Shown here: positions 1 through 17,411 of the stretch, one piece after another
How the letters are laid out: every line of letters begins with the position of its first letter
Position numbering within the stretch: the stretch's first letter is position 1
Source: a virus
Virus record (IMG/VR): IMGVR_UViG_3300044951_001643
Location: 1-20,643 of that record
Strand: one strand, 5' to 3'
Length of the DNA: 20,643 bases
The notes under the pieces: generated by a model
Databases searched by the model: none
What the model was told of the DNA's origin: nothing
The model's input: the letters and a program-made list of their open reading frames with translations, nothing else
Position numbers and translations under genes: made by a program

Positions 1-71
1 TATAATTCTAAAGCAGGCAATGCACTTACAACTCTGCCAGTCCCGCCGTTAATAAAAAAAACTTTGTGCAT
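1..71 (-). CDS. 5' end of an unidentified gene, cut by the left edge
   Basis: Only the first 23 codons lie in the window. The product begins MHKVFFINGGTGRVVSALPA, a hydrophobic beta strand followed by a glycine-rich NGGTGRV turn and a helix. Such a beegining could be the nucleotide-binding start of a Rossmann-like or GT-B glycosyltransferase-like enzyme (compare the G-x-G-D...LPAL start of heptosyltransferase-type proteins), but 23 residues cannot settle this. I chose the ATG at 71-69 because AGGG (84-81) sits 9 nt upstream of it. An in-frame ATG at 80-78 would add three residues (MNF) but directly abuts the AGGG, leaving no usable spacing. The gene has its own late promoter and a hairpin that covers its ribosome binding site (separate entries). 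The function is not assigned. Confidence 0.6.
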   Translation of the reverse strand, partial: MHKVFFINGGTGRVVSALPALEL

Positions 72-75
72 GAAA

Positions 76-115
76 TTCATCCCTATAATATATTAAAGCT
101 ATTTATAGGGATGAA
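76..115 (-). promoter_or_regulatory. Perfect 13-bp inverted repeat that would mask the ribosome binding site of the left-edge gene
   Basis: Arms 76-88 (TTCATCCCTATAA on the plus strand) and 103-115 (TTATAGGGATGAA) are perfectly complementary, with a 14-nt loop (89-102). In minus-strand RNA the 3' arm contains the AGGGAUG ribosome binding region of the next gene. A read-through transcript from the fibre operon would fold and hide that site. A transcript started at the embedded late promoter (start near 94, inside the loop) lacks the 5' arm and cannot fold. The same logic is known for T4 genes such as e and I-TevI. The pairing is seen directly; the regulatory effect is inferred. Confidence 0.65.
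100..107 (-). promoter_or_regulatory. T4-type late promoter octamer TATAAATA
   Basis: Read on the minus strand the octamer is a perfect match to the T4 late promoter consensus TATAAATA, recognised in T4 by the phage sigma factor gp55 with the sliding clamp gp45. The expected transcription start is about 6 nt downstream, near 94-93, giving a leader of about 23 nt before the ATG at 71. It lies between the stop of the 92-aa gene (138) and the next start codon. The octamer overlaps the 5' arm and the loop of the inverted repeat at 76-115. Confidence 0.75.
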
Positions 116-137: not shown

Positions 138-416
138 TTAATGCGGAGAATATCTTGACAAAGTTAACGTTTGAAAATAATTAGTTGGACGTTGAGGCCA
201 TTCTATTAATCTTAAATCTTCAAGATCTTTATATTTGTTTGGCAAATCACGAAGATCTTGTTTATACTCTTGCCATGCAGTTAACATATTTTCAGGGGAA
301 TCAAAGTTATAACAACTTTCAGCTGCTACTAGCAGCTCGTTTCGATATGATCTAACTTGATCCCATGTTATAATGTTAATTTCTTCTTCTATTATTTGTT
401 CATTTTCTGTAGTCAT
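138..416 (-). CDS. Small tail-fibre assembly chaperone-like protein (92 aa)
   Basis: This acidic 92-aa protein carries, from about residue 17 to 60, the pattern TWDQVRSYRNELL ... W.EYKQDLRDLP. It resembles the phage tail assembly chaperone type (W..VR..R...L ... W..YR..LRDLP) found beside tail-fibre genes in many phages; such proteins help fold or attach fibre tips and are not usually in the particle. The start ATG (416-414) overlaps the stop of the 347-aa adhesin gene as TAATG, so translation is probably coupled; AAGGGTG lies about 8 nt upstream. It is clearly related to the C-terminal half of the 195-aa protein at 1469-2056, which points to duplication. The last roughly 30 residues (EWPQRPTNYF...) are proline/aromatic-rich. 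The family assignment is by motif only. Confidence 0.7.
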   Translation of the reverse strand: MTTENEQIIEEEINIITWDQVRSYRNELLVAAESCYNFDSPENMLTAWQEYKQDLRDLPNKYKDLEDLRLIEWPQRPTNYFQTLTLSRYSPH

Positions 417-2923: not shown

Positions 2924-3685
2924 TTAATACCATATCTTAACTAATCCGCCACCACCGCAGCCACCGCATGATTGGGCTGTAGTAACACAACTACCAGCAG
3001 CTCCGCCACCTGGAAAATGTCCTCCCCAGTTATAAGCAAAAGTACCTACACCGCCAATACCACCGTTCATAGGAGCTGCACCGCCTCTAGTAGTAGTATA
3101 ATGACACTGAGTGCCACTTACTGTAGTTCCTCCCGCGCCTACTGCAACAATTTGGCTAGTAGCAGGAGTATTACCTGACGGAAATCCAATACCATAATTA
3201 TCTCCAGCGCATGTGTTTTGTCGGTGACAACCGGTACAAGCGCCAAATCCACCTATGGCACACAAACTGCCGGAATTAAATCCAGAAAAGTATGTTGTAC
3301 CTCCATCTGTTGCTCGTGTAGCACAACAACCATAACAACCAATATTACCTACACACCAAGTGTATTGACATCCTGGCAGTGTAGGAATAGTTGCAGACGC
3401 GTAACCGCCTGCACCGCCTGCACCACCTGCGGTGCAGGCGGTGCCATTACCGCCACCACCTCCACCGCCACCAGGCCCCCAAAGTTCAACTACGATAGAG
3501 CACACTCCAGGGGGGACGGTCCACGTGCCGCTATTGGCGTTTCCTATACCAAAAAATGTGCATTTTGTATTTGCAACTGTAATATTACAGTCTATTCTAA
3601 CACCATAATTGATGCACATAGATTGATCAGGTACGGTTGAACATACTGTATCGACTCTATCTGGTAATGATTGATATCTTGCCAT
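2924..3685 (-). CDS. Glycine-rich, cysteine-rich adhesin-like protein (253 aa)
   Basis: The first and shortest of three related adhesin-like proteins. A Cys-containing N-terminal segment (to about residue 53) is followed by WTVPPGVCSIVVELWGPG with a long run of glycines, then loops rich in Cys (CYGCC, ACTGCHRQNTC), another glycine region and the terminal strand GLVKIWY. About 19 Cys are visible. The start ATG overlaps the stop of the 2970-aa gene by one base (TAATG), and a strong AGGAGG lies 7 nt upstream, so the gene is probably co-translated with the giant protein. A perfect 14-bp GC-rich inverted repeat lies inside the poly-Gly coding part (3411-3444). Its likely role is a fibre-tip or receptor-binding protein, inferred from domain type and position. 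It has no chaperone-like gene directly behind it, unlike the two other adhesins. Confidence 0.75.
   Translation of the reverse strand: MARYQSLPDRVDTVCSTVPDQSMCINYGVRIDCNITVANTKCTFFGIGNANSGTWTVPPGVCSIVVELWGPGGGGGGGGNGTACTAGGAGGAGGYASATIPTLPGCQYTWCVGNIGCYGCCATRATDGGTTYFSGFNSGSLCAIGGFGACTGCHRQNTCAGDNYGIGFPSGNTPATSQIVAVGAGGTTVSGTQCHYTTTRGGAAPMNGGIGGVGTFAYNWGGHFPGGGAAGSCVTTAQSCGGCGGGGLVKIWY
3411..3444. repeat. Perfect 14-bp GC-rich inverted repeat inside the 253-aa adhesin gene
   Basis: Arms 3411-3424 (GCACCGCCTGCACC) and 3431-3444 (GGTGCAGGCGGTGC) are fully complementary around a 6-nt loop. The stretch codes for the GTACTAGGAGGAG part of the glycine-rich domain. Gly (GGN) and Ala/Thr (GCN/ACN) codons make complementarity easier by chance, but a perfect 14-bp arm is still striking in AT-rich DNA. 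No U-run follows on the minus strand, so it is not a typical terminator. Confidence 0.85.
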
Positions 3686-12625: not shown

Positions 12626-12633
12626 TATTTATC
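12626..12633 (-). promoter_or_regulatory. Candidate late promoter GATAAATA before the giant gene
   Basis: On the minus strand GATAAATA differs from the T4 late consensus TATAAATA at the first base only. It overlaps the TGA stop of the 1581-aa gene, ends 29 bases from the ATG at 12597, and leaves a leader of about 23 nt with AGGAG. The distance to the start codon is the same as for the perfect octamer at 100-107. It would drive the giant gene and, by read-through, the adhesin/chaperone genes behind it. Confidence 0.45.
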
Positions 12634-15600
12634 ACCAAGCTGATGTCCATAGGTTGTTTAGCGTTAAAACGCGATCAACATATTGTTTATTTGGTACATC
12701 AGTTGGATTTGTTGGTGCTGTGTTTTGTGTTGCAGTACCATTTAAGGTTAATTGTGAACCTGCTGCATAGGTATCAGTTGATCCAGATTCGTGTGTAATT
12801 GCAGATCCTGCTGCATAGTTTTCCGTAGATCCAGTTCCGTGATTAACACCGGTTGGGAATTGAACTTTGTTACCAGCTGCTGGTTGAATTACTAAATCAA
12901 CGTTATTCAATGTAGTAATTACATTACTAGATTGAAAAATATTACCAGCAGTTAAACTTGTTACTGCTAAGTTTGCACCACCTGCACCTAATTGGCTAGC
13001 AATAAATGTTTTAATTGCTCGTTGTGTAGGAATTAATGCATCACTATTTGCAGTAAATGTGCCATCTGTACTAAATTGGCTAATCGTTGCTCCACTGCCG
13101 CTAAGTTGTAAACTATATAATCCAGATAAGTTAAAATTACTAGCGTTCAAAGTAGCAATACCAGTCGCTTGTTGTACAGTAAACAAATTACCTACGTTAA
13201 AGTTACCATCTTGGTCAGTACATGTATAGAATACACGTCCGCCACCATTTTGTGTAACTTGTGCTGCAGCGGTTGGCTGTACTAACGGGTTATTAGGATA
13301 GTTTGTAGAAACAACGTTTCCTGTTCCAATTGCTAAAAAGTCATGTCCAGTTAATCGTACTTGACTGTACTGAGCTCTTATAGTTACAGCAGTTCCTTGG
13401 TCAGGAGCTAATGCAACTGATAAAGATGGATTAATTTGTAATGTTGCAGTGTAATTCCCAGCTGATCCAGATTGACTAGATACTAAAACTACAGCATAGA
13501 AATTAGTATTTCCAGCAATCGCAATTGATGATCCAGGTGTAGGAAGATCAGTTAGTGATTCAGCTGTTAAATAAAAACCAGTTTGTAAGAATTCAGCAAC
13601 ACCGTCACCTGTAATAGTAGCAAGTGCAGTTGTATAGCTAGTACCTCTATTACCCCATGTTGGTTGTCCTAAAACTCCATTTTGTTTTCTTACAGTGTAT
13701 GTACCTGCGCTTGATGCATTCGGATCAATGATATTCATTGTAATAGAGCCAGTGTATCCAGAACCTGGATTAATGATTCTAATTGCACTAATCGCACTTC
13801 CTGAAACAACTGCTCTAGCCATTGCACCCGAACCGCCTGTTCCAGTAAATGTAATTCTCGGTTCAATACTATAAGTTGTTGTTGAATCTAATGCAGCATG
13901 GACTGGTGTGCCAGCGACCGCAACATCCCAACCCGGAGTACCTGTTGATTCTTTATAAATCGTAGCAACTTTTGTACCTGCATTAAATGCCTGAATATAG
14001 CCGTATTGTCCAGTACCTTTACCTGCAGTTAACATTATTCTCATACCAATGTATTGTGATGAGCTTGCAGTATCAGCAGCCGATAATGTAATCGTAGTTG
14101 AATCACCAGTTTGCGCAGAGTTTACAGCTCTAATGTAACCGTTACCGCCGTTGGCAATACGTACTTCGGCAATTGCATTGTTAAAGATGTTAGGTGAACT
14201 AACTGATGCATTAAATCCTGTTCCGGTAATTAAATATGTTGCTGTTGAATATCCTTGACCAGCGTTTGAATATTCTAACCATAAAATATTGTTACCGTCA
14301 GTTAACACATTTGTTATAGTTGCGTGTTGAGCACGGTTAGTAACAGTACCTGTAATTGGAATTTCAGTTGCATCATATGTTTCAGAAACTGATCCTAATG
14401 TACCATATGAGTTGTTACCGTTTGTTGCACGAATTTTACCACCAGACTCACTCAAATAACCAATGTAGTTGTAGTATGTAAATACCGAAACAAGTTCTGT
14501 TCTAGCATTTGTTCCTGTACACCATACACCAATACCGTCATTAATAACTTGTGTAAAATCGTTTGCAACGATTGATTTATTGCCGCCACTATGTAATGAA
14601 CCATCGATTTTTAAACCAACACACATTGTACCAATTGTTGTTACATTTTGAACGTAAGGTGATCTAGATATAATCCATACTGATGTATCGTCAACACCAG
14701 TACCTGGATCTAAACTAACAAATGCACCTGCAGTTGGACGTTTCGTACCATAGCTATTAACAGGACCTAACGTACCAGTTAAACCAGTAAGTGTCATATT
14801 TCTAACACCAGAACCACTTCTAACATAGAACATGTTTGATGTTAAGTAACCGGCAGCTGGCTGAACAATAGTACCGCGTAACTCGTCGCCTACTAATGCA
14901 ACATTAGGCGGAATACTAATTGGTAAAATTTCGTCATATGTACCGTTTTTTACAAAAATAGTTGCAGTTTCGCCTTGGTTAGCTATTGGAATCGAAGTTG
15001 TACTAACTGCAGCTAGTGCGGTAGTAATAATTCCAAATAATGTTGTTATTTTAGTGCTTGCCCCAGATTCAGCAGTGTAGCTTAAATTAATAGTTTGCGA
15101 TACTGGACTCGGAGCAGACATTAGTGTTTGATAATTTTGTGCAGGGGCAGTGTTGCTAAGTGCGTTTCCTGTTAATCCTAACAATTTTGTAATAGCTGCC
15201 TTAATGTATTCAATCTCAGCTGCTACGGTTGTATTAACAAGTGTATTAGTACTACCTGGAGAAAAATATGATAATGCAGTTTCAACTGATTGACTATTAC
15301 CGCCTCTAGAAATATCGTAAATCATTGCATCAACAATATACTTTGCATCACGTTGAGTTCTAGTTGCATCAAACACTGAACTAGGAGTAAATGGTGAATT
15401 ACTATTAGCTTTTTGATAAAGCATCCAATAATACATTTCTTTTACCATCCAGTTTTTATTTGCAGTTAATAAGAATCTAGCATTAGGATTAAACACACCG
15501 TTAGTAACTGCATTACATGCATAGTTGATAGTTCTCCACGGTTTATCTAATGTAGGGCCGTAATCTGCAGCATCGGTTCCGTTAGTAGAAACATAAAATA

Positions 15601-17377
15601 CGTTATCAATAGTACCAAATGCATCCCATGTTGGCAATCCGTTCATAACACGTAATACTTGTCCGTCTGATCCAATTCCTAATCTTGTGTCAGATCCACT
15701 ACCTGATCTATATGTAATATCGCCTGCGGTTGTATTAAACGAGTTTGCACTGCCTTGTGCTAATAGTGTCCAATAAGTACCGGTTATATCCGCATCCGGT
15801 CTATTGCCAGCAGCAGCAGTGTGAGATAAAATACATGAATATGATGTTGAAGTATATGATACAACATCACCTAATTTGTATTCAGTACCGCTTGTCCATG
15901 CACCTTTACTCATTAAACCGGTGCTTAATAATGTCCAAGTACTTGTACTTGTTGGCGGTGCAGTGTTAGTATTATCTATAGTAGCAACATACGTATACGC
16001 ACCGTATCTAACAACGTGGCCAACTAAGTATGCAGTTGCACTAGACCAATCTCCCATCATTTTAAAGCCGGTAGTAATTGGGCTCCAATTACTTAAACTT
16101 AATGATGGAGTATTGTTAACGTTATTTGTAGTTAATGATACGTAAGTATAACCACCATATGTAACTACATCACCTAATGTATATGAGTCAACTGTGTTCC
16201 AGGTATCTACATATTGCAATCCTTCAACAAATATACTAAAGTTTGTAGTATTAAATGTACTGTTTGAAGTATGAGATGTATTACAAATCCATACATCGGC
16301 GCCGTACTTAACGACGTCATTTACTTTGTACGCAACCGGTTGAGACCAATCACCTACAAAATTAATACCGTTGACTAAAACATTCCAGTTTGATTGATTT
16401 GTTTCAAGTGCAGCTGCGCTAGTGTGGCCAGTTTGACAAATGTAAGTAGTTCCACCGTAAGTAACGATGTCACCAATTTTATAATAAGTAGTTGCACTCC
16501 ATGAACCACTCCATGAAACACCGTCTACTAATAAAGACCAGTTTGCAGAATCTAAATAAAACCCACTATTTGCAGTTGAACTTGATGTATGTCCAGTTGT
16601 ACAAATATATTCTTTTGCACCAAATTTAGCAATATCACCAATTTTGTAATATGTAGAAATTGTCCATGTACCTTTCCAAGTTTGTCCTGTAGTTAACGGA
16701 TCCCAGTTTGTTGAAAGATCAGAGTAAAATCCGCCTGCTAAAACTGAACTAGAAGTATGCCCTAATTTACAAATATAGCCATTTGCACCGTAAGTAACAA
16801 TATCTCCAATTTTGTAATATGTAGATGTACCCCATGCACCAATCCAAGTTTGGCCATCAGTTAGTAAAGTCCAATTTGATGCATCTGCATAAAAACCGCT
16901 GTTAGCAGTTGCACTTGAAGTATGTCCTGATGTACAAATATAATTCTTACCGCCAAACTTAACAATATCACCAATCTTATAAAATGTAGAAGTACCCCAT
17001 GTACCAATGAATACATAACCATCTGATAATAATGTCCAGTGTGTAGTTAAATCAGAATAAAATCCGCTGTTAGCAGTTGCACTTGAAGTATGTCCTGATA
17101 TACAAATATAGTTCTTTGCACCAAATTTAATAATATCATTTTCTTTATATACAGTACTAGGTGCCCATGATCCAGCCCAACTAACACCATCTGACATTAC
17201 TGTCCATTTTGGTGTAGCTGCAGTTAAGTCAGAATAAAACGCACCTGATGTATGCCCAACTAAACATACATAAGTTCTACCGCCGTACTTTACTATATCA
17301 TCTTTAACATACGCGTGTGACGTGATCCATGAACCTTGCCAAACAAAACGTAGTCGTCCTAATTTAAACTCTGCCAT
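12632..17377 (-). CDS. Large modular tail-fibre-like protein with W/YGG repeats and a predicted beta-helix (1581 aa)
   Basis: In order: residues about 10-545 hold ten repeats of the form W.G.W...T.YKIGDIV.YGG..YIC...HTS (see separate entry). About residue 554 follows a fibre linker, AGDITYRSGSGSDTRLGIGS. From about 590, VFYVSTNGTDAADYG...PWRTI.YA begins a region resembling secreted parallel beta-helix proteins, with the helix core around 805-1000 (IFVKNGTYDEILPISIPPNV and following). Next come several G-x-GY motifs (NAGQGY, NGGNGY, NPGSGY). A module near 1345-1420 (GHDFLAIGTGN ... TDQDGNFNVGNLFTVQ) is shared with the LamG fibre. Finally ALIPTQRAIKTFI and VPNKQYVDRVL occur in the C-terminal fibre part. 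The protein is probably a shaft or baseplate-attached fibre that touches glycans. AAGGAA precedes the ATG. No catalytic site was recognised. Confidence 0.8.
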   Translation of the reverse strand: MAEFKLGRLRFVWQGSWITSHAYVKDDIVKYGGRTYVCLVGHTSGAFYSDLTAATPKWTVMSDGVSWAGSWAPSTVYKENDIIKFGAKNYICISGHTSSATANSGFYSDLTTHWTLLSDGYVFIGTWGTSTFYKIGDIVKFGGKNYICTSGHTSSATANSGFYADASNWTLLTDGQTWIGAWGTSTYYKIGDIVTYGANGYICKLGHTSSSVLAGGFYSDLSTNWDPLTTGQTWKGTWTISTYYKIGDIAKFGAKEYICTTGHTSSSTANSGFYLDSANWSLLVDGVSWSGSWSATTYYKIGDIVTYGGTTYICQTGHTSAAALETNQSNWNVLVNGINFVGDWSQPVAYKVNDVVKYGADVWICNTSHTSNSTFNTTNFSIFVEGLQYVDTWNTVDSYTLGDVVTYGGYTYVSLTTNNVNNTPSLSLSNWSPITTGFKMMGDWSSATAYLVGHVVRYGAYTYVATIDNTNTAPPTSTSTWTLLSTGLMSKGAWTSGTEYKLGDVVSYTSTSYSCILSHTAAAGNRPDADITGTYWTLLAQGSANSFNTTAGDITYRSGSGSDTRLGIGSDGQVLRVMNGLPTWDAFGTIDNVFYVSTNGTDAADYGPTLDKPWRTINYACNAVTNGVFNPNARFLLTANKNWMVKEMYYWMLYQKANSNSPFTPSSVFDATRTQRDAKYIVDAMIYDISRGGNSQSVETALSYFSPGSTNTLVNTTVAAEIEYIKAAITKLLGLTGNALSNTAPAQNYQTLMSAPSPVSQTINLSYTAESGASTKITTLFGIITTALAAVSTTSIPIANQGETATIFVKNGTYDEILPISIPPNVALVGDELRGTIVQPAAGYLTSNMFYVRSGSGVRNMTLTGLTGTLGPVNSYGTKRPTAGAFVSLDPGTGVDDTSVWIISRSPYVQNVTTIGTMCVGLKIDGSLHSGGNKSIVANDFTQVINDGIGVWCTGTNARTELVSVFTYYNYIGYLSESGGKIRATNGNNSYGTLGSVSETYDATEIPITGTVTNRAQHATITNVLTDGNNILWLEYSNAGQGYSTATYLITGTGFNASVSSPNIFNNAIAEVRIANGGNGYIRAVNSAQTGDSTTITLSAADTASSSQYIGMRIMLTAGKGTGQYGYIQAFNAGTKVATIYKESTGTPGWDVAVAGTPVHAALDSTTTYSIEPRITFTGTGGSGAMARAVVSGSAISAIRIINPGSGYTGSITMNIIDPNASSAGTYTVRKQNGVLGQPTWGNRGTSYTTALATITGDGVAEFLQTGFYLTAESLTDLPTPGSSIAIAGNTNFYAVVLVSSQSGSAGNYTATLQINPSLSVALAPDQGTAVTIRAQYSQVRLTGHDFLAIGTGNVVSTNYPNNPLVQPTAAAQVTQNGGGRVFYTCTDQDGNFNVGNLFTVQQATGIATLNASNFNLSGLYSLQLSGSGATISQFSTDGTFTANSDALIPTQRAIKTFIASQLGAGGANLAVTSLTAGNIFQSSNVITTLNNVDLVIQPAAGNKVQFPTGVNHGTGSTENYAAGSAITHESGSTDTYAAGSQLTLNGTATQNTAPTNPTDVPNKQYVDRVLTLNNLWTSAW
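15745..17350 (-). repeat. Ten tandem W/YGG repeats coding for the N-terminal third of the 1581-aa protein
   Basis: Ten units of about 50-58 residues follow W.G.W...T.Y..GDIV.YGG..Y.C...HTS.......W..L..G. Units 2-6 are most alike (YKIGDIVKFGGKNYIC, HTSSATANSGFY). Units 7-10 are more diverged and lose the Cys or the HTS (unit 8 YTLGDVVTYGGYTYVSL, unit 9 YLVGHVVRYGAYTYVAT). The pattern resembles small carbohydrate-binding beta modules of the chitin-binding type 5/12 class (W...Y..GD.V.Y.G..Y.......). Sugar binding is an inference. Confidence 0.75.
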
Positions 17378-17403: not shown

Positions 17404-17411
17404 TATTTATT
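17404..17411 (-). promoter_or_regulatory. Candidate late promoter AATAAATA before the 1581-aa fibre gene
   Basis: AATAAATA on the minus strand differs from TATAAATA at the first base. It overlaps the TAA stop of the 121-aa gene and ends 27 bases from the ATG at 17377, the same geometry as the other two octamers. A 14-nt AT palindrome (17390-17403, TAAAATATATTTTA) follows immediately and touches the AAGGAA ribosome binding site. The AT-rich background makes a chance match quite possible. Confidence 0.35.

Follow-up and report, generated by a model that had tools for sequence, protein, structure and literature searches.

A late promoter set within a hairpin predicted to bury the ribosome binding site of the next gene at the end of a viral tail-fibre operon

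The window analysed here, a stretch of 20,643 nucleotides of viral DNA taken at its full length, carries at the end of a tail-fibre operon a hairpin that encloses a late promoter and holds the Shine-Dalgarno (SD) sequence of the next gene. This hairpin is probably a translational lock of the type found in T4 genes e, 49 and I-TevII, insulating the operon that follows from fibre-operon read-through. In the mechanism we propose, the 5′ arm (CAUCCCUAUAA) in read-through RNA from the apparently late fibre operon would pair with the SD region (UUAUAGGGAUG), and this pairing would block ribosome binding. RNA made from TATAAATA would begin near position 94, without the 5′ arm and with its SD free, so that the operon for the phrog_8954 protein, a carbamoyltransferase and an oxygenase would be translated off its own late promoter, independently of the level or timing of the fibre message. 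What we infer from the findings below is where this transcript starts, that read-through takes place and that translation is affected.

Control of this kind has been demonstrated for T4 gene e, where a long RNA buries the SD and the late RNA leaves it free; gene 49 and soc are listed among such hairpin cases (PMC3014915). Control by a late promoter and RNA structure has also been described for I-TevII, and similar arrangements for mobE of phage Aeh1 and segB of T4; the T4 cases are late genes carried on early or middle polycistronic RNA (PMC2988022).

A repeat search of the window identified an inverted repeat whose 13-bp pairing is perfect and whose arms are 14 nt apart, the minus strand from 115 to 76 reading TTCATCCCTATAA-ATAGCTTTAATATA-TTATAGGGATGAA (Table 1). 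The promoter is the sole exact copy of TATAAATA in the window. The AGGG in the 3′ arm belongs to the next gene, whose ATG (71-69, minus strand) lies 9 nt past it; a second in-frame ATG (80-78) falls within the stem. The three elements named in the preliminary description, namely the repeat, the promoter and the AGGG, were thus all reproduced from the sequence. As in the T4 systems, the SD forms part of the 3′ arm of a helix in the RNA, and TATAAATA is so placed that the predicted RNA would lack the 5′ arm. From T4 late promoter geometry we infer an RNA start near 94, in line with the 93-94 proposed earlier.

Table 1. Features at the fibre-operon boundary and late-promoter-like elements within the fibre operon.
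Feature	Position	Strand	Basis
Start of phrog_8954 gene, cut by window edge (308 aa in L003)	1..71	-	overlapping contig L003
3′ arm (TTATAGGGATGAA), carrying SD AGGG at 84-81	76..88	-	sequence read, repeat search, unpaired-probability table
Inter-arm loop sequence and extra short predicted helix	89..102	-	repeat search, RNA fold
Late promoter TATAAATA, end of 5′ arm and start of loop	100..107	-	motif search of window
5′ arm with anti-SD sequence (TTCATCCCTATAA)	103..115	-	sequence read, repeat search, covarying in relatives
Last fibre-operon gene, tail assembly chaperone-like (PF16778)	138..416	-	domain match
Late-promoter-like GATAAATA before 2970-aa fibre-operon gene, without SD-burying hairpin	12626..12633	-	motif scan, unpaired-probability table
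Late-promoter-like AATAAATA before 1581-aa fibre-operon gene, without SD-burying hairpin	17404..17411	-	motif scan, unpaired-probability table

Predicted folds agree with an SD that becomes free once RNA is made from the promoter. RNA spanning 137-1 forms the hairpin (-31.7 kcal/mol, z -2.3), whereas RNA beginning at the predicted start, 94, is without it and has no stable leader structure (z +0.65). The predicted probability that the SD is unpaired is 0.00 in the read-through RNA versus 0.68 in the promoter RNA.

Contig L003 matches the left part of the window and reaches past its edge. There the phrog_8954 gene comes first in its operon, followed by genes for a Nol-like carbamoyltransferase and a 2OG-Fe(II) oxygenase. 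Domain searches gave no support for a glycosyltransferase-like reading of the phrog_8954 protein, and the window found no match when used as blastn query against a phage collection. The carbamoyltransferase and oxygenase genes adjoin glycine-rich fibre genes at L003:5591-8108, and their products may act as modifiers of the fibres or of the host surface.

On the upstream side, the chaperone-like gene is the last in a series of glycine-rich fibre genes. Two NATAAATA elements (17411 and 12633, minus strand) precede fibre genes inside this operon, with the SD free at both. Because of these predicted promoters the fibre operon itself appears to be late, in line with the earlier remark that the upstream RNA is late. 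A search for the late sigma factor phrog_234 did not find it in the close relatives, whose records are fragments; it is present in one contig, G013, which also carries a less closely related homologue of the downstream gene. The 1581-aa fibre-operon protein (12632-17377, minus strand) has five CBM_5_12 carbohydrate-binding matches.

Evidence also comes from relatives, compared upstream of the phrog_8954 gene (71-80% protein identity). Their arms read ATCAACCCTATAAATA...TTATAGGGTTGAAT in L115 and L019, AATTTTAGTCCTATAAATA...TTATAGGACTAAAATT in L116 and L056, AAAAAATACCCCATAAATA...AGGGGTATTTTTT in L119, and GTAACCCCATAAATA...TAGGGGTTAT in L121 and L053: the letters differ and the complementarity stays. 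Across nine pairs and five loci, pairing is kept in 43 of 45 cells (95.6%), and seven of the nine pairs are altered on both sides. Since MAFFT misaligned the arms when given whole leaders, they were positioned manually on the SD ahead of the count, a choice that favours the structure to some degree. This bias was addressed with controls: sliding the register lowers pairing to 38-63%, and none of 500 shuffles matches the observed covariation. Permuting whole 3′ arms gives 120 assignments, and the true one alone attains the observed pairing. Conservation of both arms with compensatory changes, the test proposed in the preliminary description and one applied here for the T4 type, is therefore borne out.

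These data also bear on two other readings of the repeat. Its perfect symmetry over the promoter would suit a palindromic DNA site at which a dimeric protein controls the late promoter, but a binding site would retain its letters, and here the arm letters vary freely while pairing is kept; we consider this very improbable. Still less credible is a chance repeat in AT-rich DNA. The TATAAATA octamer alone is not above chance expectation in the window (1 found, 4.1 expected), and its count was dropped as evidence; the weight of TATAAATA derives from its position and from the covariation in relatives. The window has three perfect repeats of at least 13 bp with loops of 3-30 nt, the two besides this one lying at 3404-3444 in GC-rich DNA that codes for glycine repeats; when the window was dinucleotide-shuffled 60 times, one shuffle contained such a repeat. 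Together with the covariation control, this refutes chance as the explanation.

The hairpin follows the end of the fibre operon. Searching with the chaperone-like protein, counting near-identical contigs once and setting aside the weaker matches L205-L210, we found an SD-burying hairpin at all seven distinct fibre-operon junctions, each time with the SD within the 3′ arm. At the boundary in G001 (L004) an oxygenase gene follows instead, and the hairpin there, ACCTCCTGT-AAATAAATA...ACAGGAGGT, has arms with no sequence in common with those of the other loci. The arms of L122 are ATCTCCTCTA and TAGAGGAGAT, and its promoter, GTTAAATA, matches less well.

Such a position, together with a stable stem, would also be expected if the hairpin protected the fibre mRNA at its 3′ end or served as a processing site, promoter and SD overlapping it through tight spacing. 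That reading gives no account of why the SD of the next gene is always in the 3′ arm, nor of the promoter's invariable place between the two arms, and we judge it improbable. Somewhat better placed, although still unlikely, is a hairpin that terminates transcription of the fibre operon and has the late promoter of the following operon packed inside, so that RNA from this promoter escapes and burial of the SD is a by-product of compactness. The hairpin does stand at the fibre-operon end in every case, no other terminator is seen between 137 and 116, and in L119 and L121 the stems run into eight U and score as terminator-like. Only these two loci, however, combine a compact GC-rich stem with an immediate U-run. 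The window stem spans a 14-nt gap and is followed by UUUCAUG, that of L122 by CUCAUG, neither with a U-run. The window, L115, L116, G001 and L122 score clearly negative, on a formula that provides a rough ranking only and put its two positive controls near zero. Moreover, the window hairpin is absent from the output of a terminator scan (maximum loop 8), and at the operon's far end the phage uses a short-loop terminator of the classical kind. Finally, an SD inside the stem, as in seven of seven cases, is unneeded for termination. The L119 and L121 hairpins may also terminate transcription, and in some lineages termination and SD hiding could function together.

The translational lock that we prefer was further examined where promoter and hairpin part company. 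The earlier expectation that pairing should persist wherever TATAAATA does fails in L120, where the phrog_8954 gene lies behind a 173-aa gene and keeps TATAAATA with the hairpin absent. It holds in part in L118, the phrog_8954 copy of G001, which sits behind a DUF6071 gene and retains TATAAATA with a weak 7-bp pairing. Neither gene lies behind a fibre operon, so loss or weakness of the hairpin there fits insulation. The L118 SD is still largely paired (unpaired probability 0.04, fold -7.4), and its contrast with the boundary loci is thus one of stability. More distant homologues often have TATAAATA at -29 to -37 with the hairpin absent, and in cyanophages, whose versions of the downstream gene are 39-42% identical, no comparable hairpin was found.

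Across 23 distinct late-promoter/gene junctions in these contigs, the SD has an unpaired probability below 0.2 at nine and of at least 0.51 at the remaining 14. Six of the nine are fibre boundaries (the window sequence, L077, the L060 oxygenase, L073, L119 and L079); the other three are the L118 copy, L071:124 and L061:13965. As the last two bury the SD too, such burial is not unique to the fibre boundary. At L061:13965 (minus strand, contig G001) a shorter SD-burying hairpin, GCTCC-AATAAATA...GGAGC, precedes a 567-aa gene.

The order of anti-SD arm, late promoter and SD arm is that of the T4 systems: the same script recovers the design in genes 49, I-TevII and e, and misses the documented case of soc. 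In I-TevII (CCTCGTATAAATATGAATACGAGG), as in the window, the anti-SD arm lies immediately 5′ of TATAAATA and the SD in the 3′ arm; I-TevII, however, is an intron gene on early/middle RNA, whereas in the window the upstream RNA appears to be late and the gene encodes no endonuclease. Gene e likewise buries its SD in the long RNA, with TATAAATA within the hairpin, the window side of this comparison being predicted folds. It differs in having two late promoters, early read-through RNA and arms that sit differently relative to the promoter, and in being a lysis gene (lysozyme). Gene 49 resembles the window in that a late-promoter-like AATAAATA adjoins the SD-burying arms, but is a nuclease gene on early RNA. 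Unlike the gene studied here, mobE and segB are free-standing homing endonucleases in early/middle operons.

Similar elements occur in other viral contigs. A scan for CCCTATAAATA-N(4-30)-TATAGGG returned 48 loci, compared with 31 for a control pattern in which GGG replaces the CCC before the promoter. Thirteen of 34 distinct hits lie directly before a start codon versus two of 21 in this non-pairing control, a contrast weaker than it appears since L006 and L027 account for four of the 13 with palindromes that read both ways between divergent genes. Such palindromes (L027:4353-4389, L046:3814-3850, L006:6375-6411) have CCCTATAAATA on each strand, and each arm carries AGGG for the opposite gene; a single element thus seems to yield a promoter and a ribosome site for each of the two genes. 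The hits also include a long hairpin, TTCGAACCCCTATAAATA...TATAGGGGTTCGAA, which stands immediately before an HNH endonuclease gene at L032:3611-3655 and is reminiscent of those of the T4 and Aeh1 homing endonucleases. In further hits, from very large phages, CCCCTATAAATA...TATAGGGG precedes a head-tail adaptor (Ad2) gene (L005:8278-8330; L040, near 13067, minus strand); the L005 element sits behind early-type genes, and the two copies differ by compensatory letters. Separately, the large terminase region of L074 (6616-9911) looks interrupted, with two ORFs about 270 nt apart and, by eye, intein-like or insert sequence.

In T4 the device silences late genes carried by early RNA. In the window, the operon upstream appears to be late as well, and timing alone therefore fails as an explanation. 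More tentatively, and with slightly less than even expectation, late promoters set in hairpins might insulate operons quite generally among myovirus-like phages. The module would then go with a place in the genome, namely where the fibre operon ends, rather than with a particular gene, and would separate two late operons in translation and, in some lineages, also in transcription. Insulating two late operons from each other would, if true, be a new use of the device, and similar promoter-hairpin-start layouts in unrelated viral contigs suggest that its use is wider. So understood, a compact element of about 45 nt would allow gene expression to be set independently of the neighbouring operon.
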